From Lentisphaerota bacterium (lineage in GTDB: Bacteria > Verrucomicrobiota > Lentisphaeria > Victivallales > UBA1829): DNA of 64,000 nucleotides. Below, piece by piece: positions 21,654-51,883 of the stretch. The notes beneath the pieces were generated by a model. That model searched no databases, was not told the DNA's origin, and worked only from the letters and a program-made list of their open reading frames with translations. Made by a program: the position numbers and the translations under genes. Position 1 is the first letter of the stretch. Every line of letters begins with the position of its first letter. The stretch covers positions 71,976-135,975 of the forward strand of contig SUVR01000001.1 in assembly GCA_015061915.1 (NCBI GenBank), given 5' to 3'.

Positions 21654-23069
21654 TCAGAAACGGAAGTCCCGTTTACCATCGTGCAATTCCTTCAGATATT
21701 CTTTTGCAATGGACCGGACTTTCTCCGACTTGATGTTTTCCACTTCTTTCCGGATCACATCTTCGCCCAGCGTCTGGGTTTCCGTCGCAGCGTAATCTTC
21801 CAGATATTCTTTCAGGGTCATCAGGGCGTTGGGCAGACAGCAGTTTGCGATCTGACCGTTCTTTGCCAGCTGCATAAACCGGTCGCCGGTCCGGCCTTCC
21901 CGGTAGCAGGCGGTACAGAAAGATGGGATATAACCCAGCTTCAGCAGCCAGTTGACCACTTCATCCAGTGTCCGGGTATCGCTGATGTCGAACTGCGCTG
22001 TTTCATCGTGCCGTTCTTCAGTGGTGTATCCGCCCACGCTGGTACGGGATCCGCCGCTGATCTGGGAGACGCCTACCGCCAGCACCCGTTCCCGTGCCTT
22101 CCGGCTTTCCCGGGTGGAGATGATGATCCCCGTGTAGGGGACGGCGATCCGCAGGACAGCGACCAGTTTTTCAAAGATGTCATCGCTGAGCGCATCGGGG
22201 AAGTCCTTGGCGTCGATGTCATCCGCCGGACGGATCCGGGGTACGCTGATGGTATGGGGGCCCACACCCTTGGCAGCTTCCAGATGTTCCGCGTGCATGA
22301 GCTGTCCCACAAAATCGTAGCGGTAGGTGCCGAGACCGTAGAGGACACCACAGCCCACGTCATCGATCCCGCCGTCCATGGCGCGGTCCATTGCTTCTGT
22401 GTGCCAGGCGTAGTCATGCTTCGGACCGGTGGGGTGCAGCCGTTCATATTCCTTTTTATTATAAGTCTCCTGGAAGAGGATGTAAGTACCGATCCCGGCA
22501 TCCTTCAGTTTCCGGTAGTTTTCCACGGTGGTTGCGGCGATGTTCACATTGACCCGGCGGATCGCACCGTTTTTATGCTTGATGGAATAGATCGTTTTGA
22601 TGCTTTCCAGCATATATTCAATGGGGTTGTTCACCGGGTCTTCCCCCATTTCCAGTGCCAGACGCTTGTGTCCCATATCCTGAAGAGCGATCACTTCCGC
22701 CCGGATCTCCTCCTGCGTCAGTTTTTTGCGGGGGATGTGTTTGTTCTTATAATGATAAGGACAGTACAGGCAGCCGTTGACGCAATAGTTGGAAAGGTAC
22801 AGCGGCGCAAACATAACGATCCGGTTGCCGTAGATCTCCTGTTTGATCCGTTTTGCCAATGCGAAGATCCGTTCGTTTTCCTCCGCAAGTTCGCAGTCCA
22901 GCAGCACCAGTGCCTCCCGGTGTGTCAGACCTTTGCACTGTTCGGCTTTGGTGATGATGCTGTCGATATATTCCTTATCCTGTTTCTTCGATTCCGCGAA
23001 GGCGAGGGTCTCCAGAATTTCCTCATGGCAGATGAATTCTTCCGCTTTGCTTGATTTCGGGTCGTACAT
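21654..23069 (-). CDS. hydG: [FeFe]-hydrogenase H-cluster maturase HydG (tyrosine lyase)
   Basis: A 471-residue radical SAM protein. The CX3CX2C cluster motif (CVNGCLYC) lies near residue 98, preceded by APLYLSNYC. The C-terminal domain has the second, HydG-specific cluster motif: CTACYREG near 400 and a third Cys in the NCCLPNALMT region. HydG cleaves tyrosine to make the CO and CN- ligands of the H-cluster. The presence of the second cluster site separates it from ThiH. It sits directly downstream of a TM1266-family gene, a common hydrogenase-maturation neighbour. HydF and the hydrogenase itself are not in the window; HydE is at 40.8-41.9 kb. Confidence 0.95.
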   Translation of the reverse strand: MYDPKSSKAEEFICHEEILETLAFAESKKQDKEYIDSIITKAEQCKGLTHREALVLLDCELAEENERIFALAKRIKQEIYGNRIVMFAPLYLSNYCVNGCLYCPYHYKNKHIPRKKLTQEEIRAEVIALQDMGHKRLALEMGEDPVNNPIEYMLESIKTIYSIKHKNGAIRRVNVNIAATTVENYRKLKDAGIGTYILFQETYNKKEYERLHPTGPKHDYAWHTEAMDRAMDGGIDDVGCGVLYGLGTYRYDFVGQLMHAEHLEAAKGVGPHTISVPRIRPADDIDAKDFPDALSDDIFEKLVAVLRIAVPYTGIIISTRESRKARERVLAVGVSQISGGSRTSVGGYTTEERHDETAQFDISDTRTLDEVVNWLLKLGYIPSFCTACYREGRTGDRFMQLAKNGQIANCCLPNALMTLKEYLEDYAATETQTLGEDVIRKEVENIKSEKVRSIAKEYLKELHDGKRDFRF

Positions 23070-23094
23070 ATTTTAACTCCTGTTGGATTTTTGA

Positions 23095-23358
23095 TCACTT
23101 GTTTGCTTTGGAACAGACGGTCTTGACACTGACGCCATCCACCATGCCCAGTTTGCCGGAGAGCGAACTCAATACCGGCTGGGGTGCGTCAAGGACAACA
23201 CTGATGATGCTGACACCGCGGCTGCGGTAGGGAATTCCCATTCTGCCTACGATCCATTGTGAGAAATCGTGCAGAATGCGGTTGACTTCATTGGCTGCCG
23301 CCGGATCTTCCACAATGATCCCCGCCAGCGCAATGCGGTTTTCTTCTGCTGTTTCCAT
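23095..23358 (-). CDS. TM1266-family putative iron-only hydrogenase system regulator
   Basis: From the ATG at 23358, 7 bases after GGAGGAAG, the protein has 87 residues. It matches the small ACT-like family typified by TM1266: RIALAGIIVEDPAAANEVNRIL, then HDFSQWIVGRMGIPYRSRGVSIISVVLDAP, and a final LGMVDGVSVKTVCSK. Members occur next to hydE, hydF or hydG in anaerobes and are thought to act as regulators, but their ligand is unknown. It is 25 bases upstream of hydG and shares its leader and promoter. Confidence 0.88.
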   Translation of the reverse strand: METAEENRIALAGIIVEDPAAANEVNRILHDFSQWIVGRMGIPYRSRGVSIISVVLDAPQPVLSSLSGKLGMVDGVSVKTVCSKANK

Positions 23359-23403
23359 TTTGACTTCCTCCACCCGGGGGACAAGGGAAAAGCAGGCTTG
23401 AGA

Positions 23404-23591: not shown

Positions 23592-24857
23592 TTACTCGGC
23601 GCGGAGGACGTCGATGGGGTTCTGTTGGGCGGCTTTCCAGGCGGGGTAGGTGCCGAACAGGATCCCGATCGCTGCCGAGATTACCAGTGCCAGCAGGATG
23701 AACCAGACAGAAAATGCCACCGGCATACCTGCATATCTTGCCACGACTTCTGCAATACCGATCCCCATACCGACGCCGATGGCACCGCCGAGGAAGGTGA
23801 GGAAGATCGTTTCCAGCAGGAACTGGATAATAATATCGTTTTTCTTTGCGCCGAGCGCACGGCGGGTGCCGATCTCTTTCCGGCGTTCATATACATTCGC
23901 AAGCATGATGTTCATGATCCCGATCCCCCCGACCAGCAACGAGATCCCGGCAATGGATGCCATCACGATCGTAAAGATGTTCTGAGTCTTTTCCTTCTGC
24001 AGCAGCAGGTCATACGGCACCAGCTTTTCCCAGTCCCGACGGGCTCCGTGCGTTTTGTCCAGATATGCCGCGATCCGCTTGCTGGTGTAATCAATATAGA
24101 AGGTATCTTCCACGGTCACGATGAAGGTATCGTATTCCACTTCTTCCACCTGCAGCGTGCCGGTGGATACCGTGGAGGACCGGTTGCCGTATTTCGCCTG
24201 ACTGGTCGTCATAGGAATGATGATCATATCATCCGGCTTGCCGATACCGAGGATGTTGGTTCCGTGATTGTTTTCGATCACACCCACAACATTGTAAACA
24301 TGGTTTTCCACCGTGATTCTGGAGCCGATAATATTCTGTTCACCCAGATTGAACAGCTTGCGTTTTACGTTCCGTCCAACCACGCAGTTCGGTGCCTTCA
24401 TCAGATAGTCTCCGGGCGCAAGCCAGCGTCCCTGGATCAAATTGGAATTGCTGTCTTTCAAAAATGCCGGATCCACCCCGATCAGAGTCAGTTCCAACAG
24501 TGTAATACCTTTCATGATTTTCTGCCGGGTGTTCCGGGCGACGGTCACCCGCTTTACGTTTTCCATCTGCCGGATATGCTGCAGATCCGCCAGAGTCAAA
24601 CCGTATGTCTGCGTGGTGGCGGAGGCATTGCTGGTATCCTTCCCTTCCATCGGCGGTTTCCGGGAGGAAACAATGATCTTATCGATCCCCATTGCTTCAA
24701 TGGAGGCAAGCGCCTGTTCCTTCGCCCCCTGGGAGATCGACAGCATGGAAATCACGCTGCCCACCCCGAAGATGATGCCGAGCGAGGTCAGCACAGACCG
24801 GATTTTGTGGAGCATCAGGTTATGAAAAGAAAGGGAGATCTGGTCGCTGAATTTCAC
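23592..24857 (-). CDS. MacB/FtsX-type ABC transporter permease
   Basis: A 421-residue membrane protein. One membrane segment near residues 20-45 (HKIRSVLTSLGIIFGVGSVISML) is followed by a large extracytoplasmic MacB_PCD domain (about 45-285) and three C-terminal segments with the FtsX signature (GGIGIMNIMLANVYERRKEIGTRRALGAK). MacB-type permeases do not carry substrate across the inner membrane but drive export from the periplasm by mechanotransmission. The ATPase is a separate protein here, and the genes overlap by 4 bases. It is the last gene of the secretin-adaptor-ATPase-permease operon. Confidence 0.93.
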   Translation of the reverse strand: MKFSDQISLSFHNLMLHKIRSVLTSLGIIFGVGSVISMLSISQGAKEQALASIEAMGIDKIIVSSRKPPMEGKDTSNASATTQTYGLTLADLQHIRQMENVKRVTVARNTRQKIMKGITLLELTLIGVDPAFLKDSNSNLIQGRWLAPGDYLMKAPNCVVGRNVKRKLFNLGEQNIIGSRITVENHVYNVVGVIENNHGTNILGIGKPDDMIIIPMTTSQAKYGNRSSTVSTGTLQVEEVEYDTFIVTVEDTFYIDYTSKRIAAYLDKTHGARRDWEKLVPYDLLLQKEKTQNIFTIVMASIAGISLLVGGIGIMNIMLANVYERRKEIGTRRALGAKKNDIIIQFLLETIFLTFLGGAIGVGMGIGIAEVVARYAGMPVAFSVWFILLALVISAAIGILFGTYPAWKAAQQNPIDVLRAE

Positions 24858-25591
24858 TGCTTTACCTCAAATTCCGTTATCTTGCCGTTCTTTACATCGA
24901 TTTCTTTGCCCACCTGACCGTTACGGAGATAGATCACCCGGTCATAATGCTGTTCGTAGGTGGGGTTGTGAGTGACCATAACAATGGTTACGCCCTGCCT
25001 GTGCAGTTCGTGGAACAGCTCCATGATCTCATCCCCGGTCTTTTCGTCCAGATTCCCTGTCGGTTCGTCCGCCAGCAGAAAGGTTGGCTTGTTGACCAGG
25101 GACCGTGCAATGGCAACACGCTGCATTTCGCCCCCGGAAAGCTGTGTGGGACGGTGGTCAAGGCGATGCGCCAGCTTCACCCGTTCGGCATTCTCTCTTG
25201 CAATCTTTTTCCGGATCTTTTTTGCAACGCCGGCATAAACCATGGGAACTTCAATATTTTCTTCCACAGTAAGGTGGGGGAAAAGGTTGAACGCCTGAAA
25301 AATAAAGCCGATTTTGATATTCCGCAGTTCGGTCAGCATTGCATCATCCATGGTCTCCACCCGTTGACCGTCCAGCAGATATGTGCCGCCGGTGGGTTTG
25401 TCCAGCAGTCCGAGAATATTCAACAGCGTGGATTTTCCCGATCCGGATGATCCCATGATACCGAGAAATTCGCCCCGGTTCACGTGCAGGTTGATCCCTT
25501 TCAGAACCGGTACATCAAACTCCCCTGCATGGTATGTCTTGAGCAGATTTTCCATGGAGAGCGCATATTTTGCCACAGGAATATCAGGCAT
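24854..25591 (-). CDS. ABC transporter ATP-binding protein (MacB/LolD type)
   Basis: A 245-residue ATPase with Walker A GSSGSGKSTLLNILG near residue 50, Q-loop in FIFQAFNLFPHLTVEENIE, signature LSGGEMQRVAIARSL near 150, Walker B FLLADEPTGNLDEKTG and the H-loop in VTHNPTYEQH. The order and the phrase GLLDKPTGGTYLLDG are typical of the LolD/MacB/FtsE group. It lies between the adaptor (3-base gap) and permease (4-base overlap), so the three form one transporter. Confidence 0.95.
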   Translation of the reverse strand: MPDIPVAKYALSMENLLKTYHAGEFDVPVLKGINLHVNRGEFLGIMGSSGSGKSTLLNILGLLDKPTGGTYLLDGQRVETMDDAMLTELRNIKIGFIFQAFNLFPHLTVEENIEVPMVYAGVAKKIRKKIARENAERVKLAHRLDHRPTQLSGGEMQRVAIARSLVNKPTFLLADEPTGNLDEKTGDEIMELFHELHRQGVTIVMVTHNPTYEQHYDRVIYLRNGQVGKEIDVKNGKITEFEVKQ

Positions 25592-25594
25592 GGA

Positions 25595-27109
25595 TCACTC
25601 CGATTTTTCCTGCTGGAACGGACGGTAGAGGTAGACCACGTCATTCTCTTTCAGTCCGTTTTTGATCTCAACATAATTATCATTTGCCAGACCGATTTCA
25701 ACCAGTGTTTTGACCGGACCGGATGGCGTATCTGTATAAACATGATACTTGCCCCCTTCTTCAAACACGGCTTCCACCGGGATATAGAGAATATCTTTCA
25801 GGACCTGAGAAATGATTTCGGCATCAACGCTGATCCCGCTGACGATCCGGGGATCATCACTGGAGAAATCAACAGAGGATTTATAAACTTTCCGGCTGTT
25901 CGGGTCCCACGGGATCAACAGGATCGGCAGAGGTGAGATCATGGAAAGTCTGCCGTAAAGCTTCAGATTCTGAACAGAGCCGGGCGTAATAATCACCTGG
26001 GCGCCCCGGTTGACCTTGGACCGGTACTGTTCCGGTATATCCAGATCGACAACGAGTGTATTCATATCCGGAATCGTGGCAAGAGTCTGTCGGCGATGGA
26101 CGTCCATACCGACTTTTACATCGATTTTCCCCCAGCGGTTCCGTTCGGGATCCCCGTATGTCACAAAGCCGTCCACCGGCGCGACCAACTGCATTTTCGT
26201 CATGTAATACAGCTTCTGTTCCAGGTCCCGTTCTTTCCGGCGGAGGTTCACTTCCGCATTGGCAACCGTACTTTTCTTCTGTGCCAGACTGGACTGAGTC
26301 CGGATCTGTTCCTTCTTCATAGTCAGTTCCAGACGCAGAACTTTATCTTTGGCATTTTTGTAGTTGTTCGGCTGGGTATAACGTTTGAAACTTTTGCGGT
26401 CAAGAATGGTATTCCGATAGGAAATACGGGCACTTTTCAAGGATTTCAACGCCGCTTCATAAGCCTTTTTCCGGCTGGCAACTTCGTTTTCATCCTTCGC
26501 AACTTCCGTCGGATTGTAATAGTTGTCGTACGCAGTCCGGTATGCGGTTTCTGCATCCCGCAATGACTGGTATGCGTTACTGACAGACTGGTCCTGCTGG
26601 TTCTTGCTTTTCGGTCCGTCCAGCTTGCGGTACTTGCTGTATGCACTGATCGCATCATCCAGATTGTCTTTGGCGGACTTCAGGTCAGCGTTATTGGCAC
26701 TGATCAGCATCGCAAGTTCTTCCCGTGCCAGCTTCAAAGTCTTTTCGCCGTCGGCAATACTGATTTTCAAGTCATCGATCTGGGTTTGGAGTGTTTCCGT
26801 TTCAAACCGGGCAATGATGTCGCCCTTGGAAACTTTTTCGTTTTCTTCAACCACAGATACCAGTTTTGTGGAGAGCGGAACTTCCAGAAACAGTTTGTGT
26901 TTGACTCTGGTATTGATGCTGCCGGGCAACAGTACGCCGATTGGCAGATCGCCCCGTTTTACTGTGAACAACTTGTCGGGTGACTTTGCGCTCTTTTCCA
27001 GGATCGCCTGCTGCTTGTTCTTCCAGCTGCGCCACCCGTAATATCCGCCTGTTCCCGCCAGACCAAGCAGAACCAGAAGGATAATGATCTTACGGATCAC
27101 TTTTTTCAT
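25595..27109 (-). CDS. Periplasmic adaptor (MacA/HlyD-like) with an extended hairpin
   Basis: A 504-residue membrane-fusion protein. One N-terminal membrane anchor (IIILLVLLGLAGTGGYYGW) is followed by a split lipoyl/barrel-sandwich domain (first half near 70-110, VVEENEKVSKGDIIARFETE; second half near 315-345, MQLVAPVDGFVTYGD) surrounding about 200 residues of coiled coil rich in K, A, E, Y and N. A beta-barrel domain follows (LVVDLDIPEQYRSKVNRGAQVII). The coiled coil is longer than in E. coli MacA, which may suit a different outer-membrane partner. The gene sits 3 bases after a secretin gene and 3 bases before the ATPase gene. Confidence 0.9.
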   Translation of the reverse strand: MKKVIRKIIILLVLLGLAGTGGYYGWRSWKNKQQAILEKSAKSPDKLFTVKRGDLPIGVLLPGSINTRVKHKLFLEVPLSTKLVSVVEENEKVSKGDIIARFETETLQTQIDDLKISIADGEKTLKLAREELAMLISANNADLKSAKDNLDDAISAYSKYRKLDGPKSKNQQDQSVSNAYQSLRDAETAYRTAYDNYYNPTEVAKDENEVASRKKAYEAALKSLKSARISYRNTILDRKSFKRYTQPNNYKNAKDKVLRLELTMKKEQIRTQSSLAQKKSTVANAEVNLRRKERDLEQKLYYMTKMQLVAPVDGFVTYGDPERNRWGKIDVKVGMDVHRRQTLATIPDMNTLVVDLDIPEQYRSKVNRGAQVIITPGSVQNLKLYGRLSMISPLPILLIPWDPNSRKVYKSSVDFSSDDPRIVSGISVDAEIISQVLKDILYIPVEAVFEEGGKYHVYTDTPSGPVKTLVEIGLANDNYVEIKNGLKENDVVYLYRPFQQEKSE

Positions 27110-27112
27110 GGC

Positions 27113-28570
27113 TTACTTGCCCTCTTTTTTCTGTTCCATAATCTGATCCAGTTCTTTCAGGATCGCACGTTCATTTTCCAGTTTTTCACGACGCCGTTTC
27201 GCTTCTTCGTTCATTTCGCCTTCCACATCAACAAACTTTGTTGCAGGTTTGTTGGTGAAGAGCTGGCGGGACTGTTCCAGGATTTCTGCGGTCTTGTGGA
27301 TCTCTTCTGCAGTGGCATCCGGATCAAGAGAACGCATTTTTCCGGGCTGGATAATGTGGACTTTCAAAAGGAACAGCAGTTGCTTATCCACGCTGCTGGA
27401 GTCACGACCATTGATCAGATCGCTGAGAACAGGAATGTCACCCAGATACGGGATCTTCCGGAGCGTTTCGGATTTTTCACTGTTGTAGAGACCGCCGAGA
27501 ACAATAATATCTCCATCTGCAACCGTCAATTTTGTATCGACGCTGCGAAGTGAGATCACCGGAATATTGCTGATTACATCATTCATGGAGAACGCTTCGT
27601 AACGGAGCACGGAGCGTACCTGCGGATTGACGGAAAGCTGAACCGTTTTCTCATTGATCAGTTCCGGTGTGATCTTCAACGTTACACCCACCTGTTTGTA
27701 CTTGATGGAGAGGTTGGTGCTGGAACTGCTGGTGCTGGATTCCGGGATCGGCAATTCTTCTGCAGTCGTGATCGTGGCATCTGCGCCCTGAGCTGCAATC
27801 ACGTTCGGCGCGGAAAGGATCCGGGCATTCCGGCTGGTGTTCAGCCAACGGATCGCAGCTGTAAGTTGACCATTGGAGCCGTCCGAGGACTTATGAGCAA
27901 AGGGAACAAAGTTGAACCCGCCGCCCTGACCGGCAAGACGGTTCTGCACGGGAGAATCTAGATTGAATCCGAAATTATTGGTCGTATCATATTTTGCATC
28001 GTAGTACTGATAGGTCAGGCGCACATCCCGTTCTGCTCCCTGTTCGGAGTAGACTTCGATGATTTGTGCTTCCACAAGTACCTGCGGCTGAAGAAGGTCC
28101 AGACTTTCCAGAACTTTTTTCAGTTCGTCCATCTTTTCCATCTTGTCATAAACAACGATCATGCTGTGTTCGTTGGTTTCAGAGCCGAGTTTCTTGACCA
28201 GTTCCACATAACCCAGATCGGTCACAAGCGCATCAAGGGCATCCGTGAGATATTCCGGATCGATATAACGGCAACGGTAGATCAGGGTTGCCATACCGTC
28301 CTGACCGGGGATGATCTTGAATTCCGGTTTCGATTCGATCAGGGGTTTGCCGGCAATAAAGGCGGGCGGTTTCCGTTCCAGAAAAAAGCGCATCATCTGT
28401 TCCATGACCGCTTTTTTATTCTTGGCGGCATCCTTTGCTGCATTGATGTCGTCAATGGTGATTTTTATGTCGGCACCCTTTTGTTCTGTTGCACGCACCG
28501 GTTCCGCTGCGGAAAGGGTCGTCGCAAACAACAGTACAGTACCGGCTGCGAGCAGCTGTCTGATCGTCAT
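27113..28570 (-). CDS. Secretin-domain outer-membrane protein of a MacAB-like operon
   Basis: From the ATG at 28570 (GGAGTAAACCAT upstream) it has 485 residues and a signal peptide (TIRQLLAAGTVLLFATTLSAAE). Residues near 75-160 look like an N1-type KH-fold (YIDPEYLTDALDALVTDLGYVELV, then MIVVYDKMEKMDELKKVLESLD). The secretin core follows from about 165 (PQVLVEAQIIEVYSEQGAERDV), including VGVTLKITPELINEKTVQLSV, VADGDIIVLGGLYNSEKSETLRKIPYLGDIPVLSDL near 395-430 and LLFLLKVHIIQP. It ends with a charged helical tail. Secretins form outer-membrane gates for type II/III secretion and pili. Here the neighbours are a MacAB transporter, not pilus genes, suggesting it replaces TolC. That is inference from the operon. 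Confidence 0.88.
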   Translation of the reverse strand: MTIRQLLAAGTVLLFATTLSAAEPVRATEQKGADIKITIDDINAAKDAAKNKKAVMEQMMRFFLERKPPAFIAGKPLIESKPEFKIIPGQDGMATLIYRCRYIDPEYLTDALDALVTDLGYVELVKKLGSETNEHSMIVVYDKMEKMDELKKVLESLDLLQPQVLVEAQIIEVYSEQGAERDVRLTYQYYDAKYDTTNNFGFNLDSPVQNRLAGQGGGFNFVPFAHKSSDGSNGQLTAAIRWLNTSRNARILSAPNVIAAQGADATITTAEELPIPESSTSSSSTNLSIKYKQVGVTLKITPELINEKTVQLSVNPQVRSVLRYEAFSMNDVISNIPVISLRSVDTKLTVADGDIIVLGGLYNSEKSETLRKIPYLGDIPVLSDLINGRDSSSVDKQLLFLLKVHIIQPGKMRSLDPDATAEEIHKTAEILEQSRQLFTNKPATKFVDVEGEMNEEAKRRREKLENERAILKELDQIMEQKKEGK

Positions 28571-28639
28571 ATGGTTTACTCCGTATCTTTGCGGATGCCA
28601 GTGTGGGGTGCCCGACATCCAGTTGTTTTTCGATTGGAT

Positions 28640-28769: not shown

Positions 28770-29954
28770 TCAGCTGAGCTTGACTTCCTTGCCGCCCTGT
28801 TCAGCGGACTGGTAGATACCGCACAGGATCTTCTGGATCATGAGACCGGCTTCGCCCGGAGCGCGCAGTTCGGTGCCCTTCAGGATCGCATCCACCCAGT
28901 TCTGCAGTTTGCGCTTGAACAGGTAGACCCAGTCGTGGTTCCAATCCGGCAGCAGGTGGTCCGGAGCCATGGTGATCATAGCACCATCCTGGTCCGTGAA
29001 GATCTTCAGGGGATCCCAGGTACAGCCGCCCTTGTCACCCATTGCGGTGAAGGTCCAGGTCAGCGTCTTTTCCAGATGTGCTGCAAAGGAGGATTCGATC
29101 TGCATGATCATGCCGTTATCGAAACGGATGTGACCGATCGCAAGGTCTTCCACCGTGTAGGTCTTGTAATCCCAGTTCGGCCAGTCGCAGGAAACGTTGC
29201 AGGGTTTGTTGCCCAGGTAGGTCCAGCAGTTACCCGTAGCGGCAACCGGTTTCGGGGAGCCCATGAAGTAGTGAGCCATTTCGATCACGTGAACGCCGAT
29301 ATCGATCAGCGGACCGCCGCCCTGAAGTTCTTTCTGTCCGAACACACCCCAGTTCGGAATACCGCGGCGACGCAGTGCCTGACATTTCACGAACATCAGA
29401 TTACCGAACTGACCGCGGGCTTTCGCGTTCATCAGGTAGTCCGTCTTGGTGTTGTAACGGTGCTGGAAACCAACTGCCAGCTTCACGTTGTTCTTCTTGG
29501 CGGCAGCGATCATCTTTTCACATTCTTCCGGAGTCATTGCCATGGGTTTTTCCACCATCACGTGGCAGCCGGCATTGGCTGCAGCAACGGCTGCGGGCAT
29601 ATGAACACCGTTCGGAGTACAGACGTCGATGGCATCCGGCTTCACTGCCTTGAACATATCATCCCACTTTTCAAAGCACATTTCCGGAGTCGCACCATAC
29701 TGCTTCTGGACGTATTCCAGACGATCCGGCTTGATGTCGCAGTAGCCCACAATTTCCACTTCCGGAATCTGGGAGTACGCTGCCATGTGGGTCGTGAAAA
29801 TACCGCCGCAACCGATAAATGCCACGCGCAGTTTCTTCGGAGCTGCAGCCTTCTTCACAGCTGCTTTCTTCGGAGCTGCCTTCTTGGCTGCTGTTGCTTT
29901 CGGGGCTGCTGCCTTCTTGGCAGGTGCGGCTTTCTTTGCTGTTGCTTTTGCCAT
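28770..29954 (-). CDS. Gfo/Idh/MocA-family oxidoreductase with histone-H1-like N-terminal tail
   Basis: A 394-residue protein. Residues 1 to about 41 are almost only K, A and P (repeated KKAA and APKK units), like a bacterial histone-H1 tail. The enzyme follows: NAD(P)-binding GxGGxxxxH stretch in RVAFIGCGGIFTTHM near 43-57, the EKPMAMTPEECE motif near 136 with the conserved EKP lysine, then the substrate-binding domain with GGGPLIDIGVHVIEMAHYFMG. These proteins oxidise or reduce sugars and inositols. No internal Met lies between tail and enzyme and AAGGAAAC precedes the first ATG, so the tail is probably made. DNA or RNA binding, or ribosome attachment by the tail, is speculation. Confidence 0.9.
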   Translation of the reverse strand: MAKATAKKAAPAKKAAAPKATAAKKAAPKKAAVKKAAAPKKLRVAFIGCGGIFTTHMAAYSQIPEVEIVGYCDIKPDRLEYVQKQYGATPEMCFEKWDDMFKAVKPDAIDVCTPNGVHMPAAVAAANAGCHVMVEKPMAMTPEECEKMIAAAKKNNVKLAVGFQHRYNTKTDYLMNAKARGQFGNLMFVKCQALRRRGIPNWGVFGQKELQGGGPLIDIGVHVIEMAHYFMGSPKPVAATGNCWTYLGNKPCNVSCDWPNWDYKTYTVEDLAIGHIRFDNGMIMQIESSFAAHLEKTLTWTFTAMGDKGGCTWDPLKIFTDQDGAMITMAPDHLLPDWNHDWVYLFKRKLQNWVDAILKGTELRAPGEAGLMIQKILCGIYQSAEQGGKEVKLS

Positions 29955-31499: not shown

Positions 31500-31805
31500 A
31501 TCCGATTTTGTCCGATTTGCGTGACAAATAAATCCCCCCGTGCCGCGACGAAAGGAAGTTGAGTTGGGCGGCACAAGTAAGAGGGCGCTTTGCATTCCAT
31601 ACCTTTTGGCGTGACAAATAAATCCCCCCGTGTCGCGACGAAACGAAGTTGAGTTGGGCGGCACAAGTAAGAGGGCGCTCTGCGCCCCCTGTTTTTGACG
31701 GCTCCCCCTTACCCCCATACTGCGATCAGTCGCCCGTCAAAAACAGACCCGTTCGGATCACCGGGGAATGTTTCCCCGGCGACATTAAGGTGCGGCGCGT
31801 CAAAC
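31500..31805 (+). repeat. Folded dispersed intergenic repeat, copy 1 (with a 90-bp tandem duplication)
   Basis: This 306-bp stretch recurs in inverted orientation at 51661-51883. It holds a chain of perfect inverted repeats: GTGCCGC/GCGGCAC (31540-31546 and 31568-31574, again in the second unit), GGGCGC-TCT-GCGCCC (31673-31687), a long stem TGTTTTTGACGG/CCGTCAAAAACA (31690-31701 and 31734-31745) enclosing a small GCGA-TCAG-TCGC hairpin, and CCGGGGAA-TGT-TTCCCCGG (31761-31779). The left part, from GCGTGACAAATA, is duplicated with a 90-bp period (31519 and 31609). Short reading frames across it are by-products. It lies between two convergent genes. No transposase or terminal target duplication is seen. 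Confidence 0.85.
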
Positions 31806-51660: not shown

Positions 51661-51883
51661 GTTTGACGCGCCGTACCTTAGTGTCGCCGGGGAAAAGTTC
51701 CCCGGTGATCCGAACGGGTCTGTTTTTGACGGGCGACCAGTCGCATGAATGGGGGTAGGGGGGAGCCGTCAAAAACAGGGGGTGCAAAGCACCCTCCTAC
51801 TTGTGCCGCCCAACTCAACTTCGTTTCGTCGCGGCACGAAGGGATTTCTTTGCCGCATGGTTCGGACAATTCGGACAGCAAGG
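51661..51883 (-). repeat. Folded dispersed intergenic repeat, copy 2
   Basis: Reverse complement of the repeat at 31500-31805, without its tandem duplication. All stems are kept: CCGGGGAA/TTCCCCGG (51687-51705) with a different 3-base loop, TGTTTTTGACGG/CCGTCAAAAACA (51721-51732 and 51766-51777) with its inner GCGA/TCGC hairpin, and GTGCCGC/GCGGCAC. One hairpin differs by a compensatory pair of changes: GGGTGC-TTT-GCACCC here against GGGCGC-TCT-GCGCCC in copy 1. It lies between pnp and the phosphofructokinase gene, after the pnp terminator. Confidence 0.85.

Follow-up and report, generated by a model that had tools for sequence, protein, structure and literature searches.

A secretin encoded with a MacAB-type ABC module suggests a kind of two-membrane export machine not described before in the Verrucomicrobiota group

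In the window (the whole stretch of 64,000 nucleotides analysed here), four minus-strand genes at nt 23592–28570 code, in this order, for a secretin, a MacA-like adaptor, a LolD/MacB-type ATPase and a MacB/FtsX permease, and point to a kind of two-membrane export machine, present in the Verrucomicrobiota group, that has not been described before. The operon is likely to represent a stand-alone pump across both membranes, having the secretin as outer-membrane exit. The broader reading, i.e., a distinct class of double-membrane export machine whose secretin ring would be driven by an ABC mechanotransmission motor via a MacA-like adaptor, free of pilus or pseudopilus and derived in this group from one ancient secretin–TolC exchange, is somewhat bolder and is considered more likely than not. 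TolC-family ducts and secretins have unrelated folds, each thought to be tied to its own set of machines, secretins being wide outer-membrane pores that usually serve pili and type II/III secretion. A search of the open full-text literature yielded no report of a secretin combined with a MacAB-type or FtsX module. The four features are:

27113–28570, minus strand: secretin, 485 aa (Pfam Secretin, E=1.3e-37; AF2 model; Foldseek)
25595–27109, minus strand: MacA-like periplasmic adaptor, 504 aa (Pfam HlyD_D23/HlyD_3, NCBIfam RND_mfp; AF2; Foldseek; tip analysis)
24854–25591, minus strand: MacB/LolD-type ABC ATPase, 245 aa (ABC_tran, E=5e-35; NCBIfam; motifs)
23592–24857, minus strand: MacB/FtsX-type permease, 421 aa (MacB_PCD, E=1.3e-31, FtsX, E=7.6e-26; NCBIfam; hydropathy)

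These ORFs lie where the first-pass annotation had placed them, separated by gaps of 3, 3 and -4 bases, and Pfam agreed with the families it had assigned (Secretin; HlyD_D23 and HlyD_3; ABC_tran; MacB_PCD and FtsX). The mechanically predicted secretin ORF starts at nt 28618; the start chosen in that annotation, at nt 28570, comes with a Shine-Dalgarno-like GGAG and gives a protein that begins with a signal peptide, as claimed. The adaptor, 99% identical to that of the MAG RGIG8655, comprises an inner-membrane helix, a lipoyl domain, a barrel and a hairpin of about 200 residues; its AlphaFold model, with one N-terminal helix and a hairpin formed by helices 105–198 and 207–304 (pLDDT 87), matches the coiled coil of about 200 residues expected from the sequence, and its top Foldseek match was MacA of MacAB-TolC. 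Top NCBIfam scores of the ATPase were obtained with MacB and LolD, under the equivalog cut-offs, and its catalytic motifs (Walker A GSSGSGKS, LSGGE, LLADEP and the H-loop) are intact. The permease aligned over its full length with the NCBIfam MacB equivalog model, with a score under the cut-off, and shows four hydrophobic segments with a large, MacB-like periplasmic domain between the first and the second. The operon therefore resembles MacAB-TolC in adaptor fold, in MacB periplasmic core and FtsX domains and in a MacB/LolD-type ATPase with intact motifs, whereas it differs in having a secretin and not TolC as outer-membrane gene, in encoding ATPase and permease as separate proteins, and in an adaptor hairpin of about 95 residues per arm devoid of the TolC-docking tip (see below).

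Searches with the window proteins retrieved the same four-gene order throughout the order of the window genome (Lentisphaeria; 2.49 Mb, 97% complete) wherever contigs were long enough. The sole exception among in-order genomes with intact contigs was G039, where secretin and adaptor are on separate contigs and a different gene lies upstream of the adaptor. Of the 61 genomes of the order, 47 have both genes, secretin and adaptor, and 13 have neither; in the only discordant one, G030, the adaptor lies at a contig edge. The two genes were separated by ≤30 bases in 67 of 72 loci (median 4), and the secretin came first in all 20 of the further loci collected later as a test. A pattern-based scan of GTDB genomes yielded 77 loci, mostly in Lentisphaeria and including Victivallis vadensis DSM 14823; the same scan is the only coverage of other phyla and it missed the second secretin clade (see below), so its negative outside the phylum is weak. 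Since the same gene arrangement is found throughout the order as well as in further families of the phylum, it is not due to chance, and its absence from relatives, which would have told against the pairing, is not the case: it is near-universal in operon-bearing genomes. What looked like a secretin fusion of 1100 residues in G016 (L063) resulted from an ORF extended upstream in frame and was discarded as no real fusion. No gene beyond the four was conserved in the 72 loci, hence no pilus motor is linked to the operon; in particular, motor ATPase, platform protein and pilin genes were not conserved beside the secretin, nor was any neighbour found that could name the substrate.

The secretin belongs to the PF00263 superfamily by its C-terminal secretin domain and fold. 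Its AF2 model (pLDDT 75.6) consists of a conserved N-terminal helix, one KH-like N domain (aa ~83–157), the barrel (aa ~163–407) and C-terminal helices, and its best Foldseek matches were PulD/GspD (E=9e-20 to PulD). GspD was also the best NCBIfam profile (144 bits, cut-off 351), PilQ reaching 123 bits (cut-off 284). The operon secretin thus has the barrel domain in common with GspD and PilQ but stays far under both cut-offs and bears a single N domain in place of their N0–N2 plus N3. In a quick-method tree without bootstrap, which also contained GspD and HofQ of E. coli, two Amuc_1098-like secretins from the PilM cluster and another eight secretin-like proteins of the window genome, the operon secretins formed one clade of their own (support 97). 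The clustering with GspD or PilQ, considered beforehand as an argument against a dedicated pump, was therefore not seen. Four tandem pairs of other secretin-like genes (~470–520 plus 530–700 aa), forming two sister subfamilies, were also observed in the window genome, on C22, C27, C4 and C8 (L087:8201-11499; L088:6648-9653; L089:5115-8269; L090:12851-16535), and the ORF lists showed no recognisable pump or pilus gene next to them.

These data bear on the possibility that the secretin serves the type IV pilus or type II secretion of the cell, or that the ABC module aids pilus biogenesis. Indeed, the window genome has four PF00437 motor ATPases and a PilM cluster, and in M. xanthus the ABC exporter PilGHI, encoded in the pilA operon, is required for type IV pili (PMC3546991, PMC3724824). 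PilGHI, whose proposed role is to move pilin across the inner membrane, is the closest known case of an ABC exporter acting together with a secretin-based machine, being functionally tied to the PilQ pilus; however, it is encoded with pilin, and its operon has no secretin. The PilM cluster is moreover separately equipped with two large Amuc_1098-like secretins, so that the pilus machinery has its own. The operon, unlike type II secretion and type IV pilus systems, lacks GspE/GspF and pseudopilin genes, and its secretin, a separate clade without the extra N domains and with no pilin, PilB or PilC neighbour, was lost along with the adaptor in 13 genomes that retain other secretins. A service to pili or type II secretion is accordingly quite improbable, and a secretin acting as exit of the adjacent ABC module is preferred.

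A phylum-wide profile search with the adaptor retrieved weaker relatives in other classes, and sister operons were recognised having the same adaptor, ATPase and permease genes in the same order but preceded by a gene for a 520–700 residue protein. When the upstream proteins were scanned, 25 of 26 proved to be TolC-family outer-membrane efflux proteins (OEP, PF02321). In the 104 non-duplicate loci where the adaptor was preceded by ≥1200 bases of sequence, the upstream slot was occupied by a secretin in 70, by a TolC-family OEP in 27, located elsewhere in the phylum, by neither in 7 and by both in none, no OEP gene being found at any of the 70 secretin loci. The OEP-adaptor-ATPase-permease operons of Verrucomicrobiota (e.g., L223 and L225) hence share with the window three homologous genes in the same order, whereas their first gene is of the TolC family, their adaptor keeps the tip motif and they fall in a separate clade. 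An adaptor profile including the second secretin clade gave E <1e-140 with full-length secretin-linked adaptors versus 1e-76 to 1e-90 with OEP-linked ones. All secretin-linked rows grouped both in the permease tree (support 99) and in the adaptor tree (support 94), each made by a quick method without bootstrap and each implying one change from the OEP-linked rows, with the direction of the exchange (TolC to secretin or the reverse) left unrooted. As read from sequence, one gene position has thus been swapped between TolC-family protein and secretin. The secretin-linked clade splits into two branches, one being the order of the window genome and the other made of scattered families elsewhere in the phylum. 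In both trees the operon of G289, a genome from outside the order, is of the order type, which fits a transfer of the whole operon, and G099 and G145 hold one operon of each type per genome.

The exchange is also relevant to the alternative that the ABC module, as a Lol- or pilotin-like device, assembles or targets the secretin, delivering or opening it for another substrate route. Gene linkage can reflect assembly help instead of a shared channel, the ATPase also scores well with LolD, type VII ABC proteins include LolCDE, and the tip of the secretin-linked adaptor is not conserved. On the contrary, sister operons of the same adaptor-ATPase-permease family hold TolC in the slot of the secretin, thus indicating a role as exit channel; the permease includes the MacB periplasmic core domain (Pfam MacB_PCD) and the adaptor a full MacA fold, and no other partner gene is conserved. 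An assembly device appears therefore unlikely, although it is the least improbable of the alternatives weighed here, all of which (assembly factor, pilus accessory, unlinked TolC) are less well supported than a pump exiting through the secretin.

According to the last of them, the pump uses an unlinked TolC-family protein, and the secretin, as an accessory gene, has an unrelated function. TolC-family genes do occur in nearly all these genomes: OEP genes were found in 60 of the 61 genomes of the order and, in the window genome, two are present, neither adjoining an adaptor or MacB gene. All 13 genomes without the operon are however included in that count, so that no specific co-conservation of a TolC homologue with the MacAB module was seen, contrary to what might be expected if TolC supplied the exit. 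Furthermore, gain or loss of the secretin goes along with that of the adaptor.

The adaptor tip was informative in the same respect. Binding of MacA, AcrA and HlyD to TolC depends on the motif RxxxLxxxxxxS/T at the hairpin tip, as established by mutation and cross-linking (PMC3391258). E. coli MacA keeps this motif (RQQRLAQTKAVS), as do, in its strict form, two other adaptors of the window genome, both beside ABC genes (RAKNLHRGNAST and RSERLLKSHADS), whereas it was not found anywhere in the window adaptor; the adaptor devoid of docking site is thus the one encoded with the secretin. As a discriminator between groups, the strict motif was rejected, since it occurs in 1 of 26 OEP-linked versus 1 of 47 secretin-linked adaptors, the arginine being usually replaced in this OEP-linked family. 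Indeed, OEP-linked adaptors have a conserved tip, with L and S/T in 23 of 26 and the arginine usually missing, and a loose regular expression matched 23/26 of them versus 12/47 of the secretin-linked ones. A position-specific profile derived from the OEP-linked tips, scored leave-one-out against shuffles, was preferred to both and recognised (z>4) 24 of the 26 OEP-linked adaptors versus none of the 47 secretin-linked ones. In OEP-linked adaptors conservation peaks locally at the tip, whereas in secretin-linked ones no other stretch of the hairpin is as poorly conserved (1.25 bits vs. 2.3–2.5), because of which no conserved secretin-docking site was found on the latter. With the docking tip missing here and present in the other two adaptors of the same genome, an unlinked TolC is the least probable of the three alternatives.

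The secretin-exit pump, preferred on these grounds, corresponds to the pairing of a secretin with a MacB motor originally proposed in the first-pass annotation, a proposal that the present comparison of sequences and models supports. In such a machine the split MacB-type ATPase and permease would act by mechanotransmission, with ATP driving the periplasmic domain of the permease, as reviewed for MacB-type proteins (PMC5985334). The short, one-N-domain secretin would replace the TolC trimer as outer-membrane exit, presumably in direct contact with the adaptor, and transport would run outwards. As in MacAB-TolC, the periplasm would probably be the source of the substrates, which may exceed in bulk the limits of TolC, e.g., folded or large polypeptides, as secretin pores are wider. 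Secretin rings are usually 12–15-mers and MacA is a hexamer sitting on a MacB dimer, thus leaving a symmetry mismatch to be solved. This mismatch and the adaptor tip without a conserved secretin-docking site are the weakest points of the model.

The swap of secretin and TolC at one slot, together with the matching loss of the docking tip, would make outer-membrane exits exchangeable modules and, if the model is true, ABC-driven export would reach a wider, secretin pore, raising the question of how a hexameric adaptor meets a 12–15-mer ring. It also offers a first lead on secretion in Lentisphaeria of gut and environmental origin, which are poorly studied and include the cultured Victivallis vadensis.

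Some further observations concern the surroundings of the operon. The flanking genes, GFO/IDH/MocA upstream and HydG-like and TM1266 downstream, are not conserved companions in the neighbourhoods of the 72 loci. The GFO/IDH/MocA-family oxidoreductase (nt 28770–29954, minus strand) has a Lys-, Ala- and Pro-rich N-terminal tail (KKAAPAKKA type, about 40 residues), an unusual feature in such an enzyme. Immediately 3' of the operon and on the same strand (nt 21654–23373, minus), a Radical SAM/BATS protein (HydG-like) and a TM1266-like iron-only hydrogenase regulator are encoded. A pseudopilin-like protein with a FTLIELLVVVAIIAILAGLLLPSLNKAR leader is encoded near some operons (6 of 72 loci; e.g., L105:10762-11628), a proximity probably due to chance if such genes are abundant in these genomes. 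Finally, a dispersed 90-base repeat was detected at nt 31519–31683 and nt 51800–51819, with 1.8 tandem copies in the window (96% match), and in similar form also on contig C9 (L086:9727-10272).
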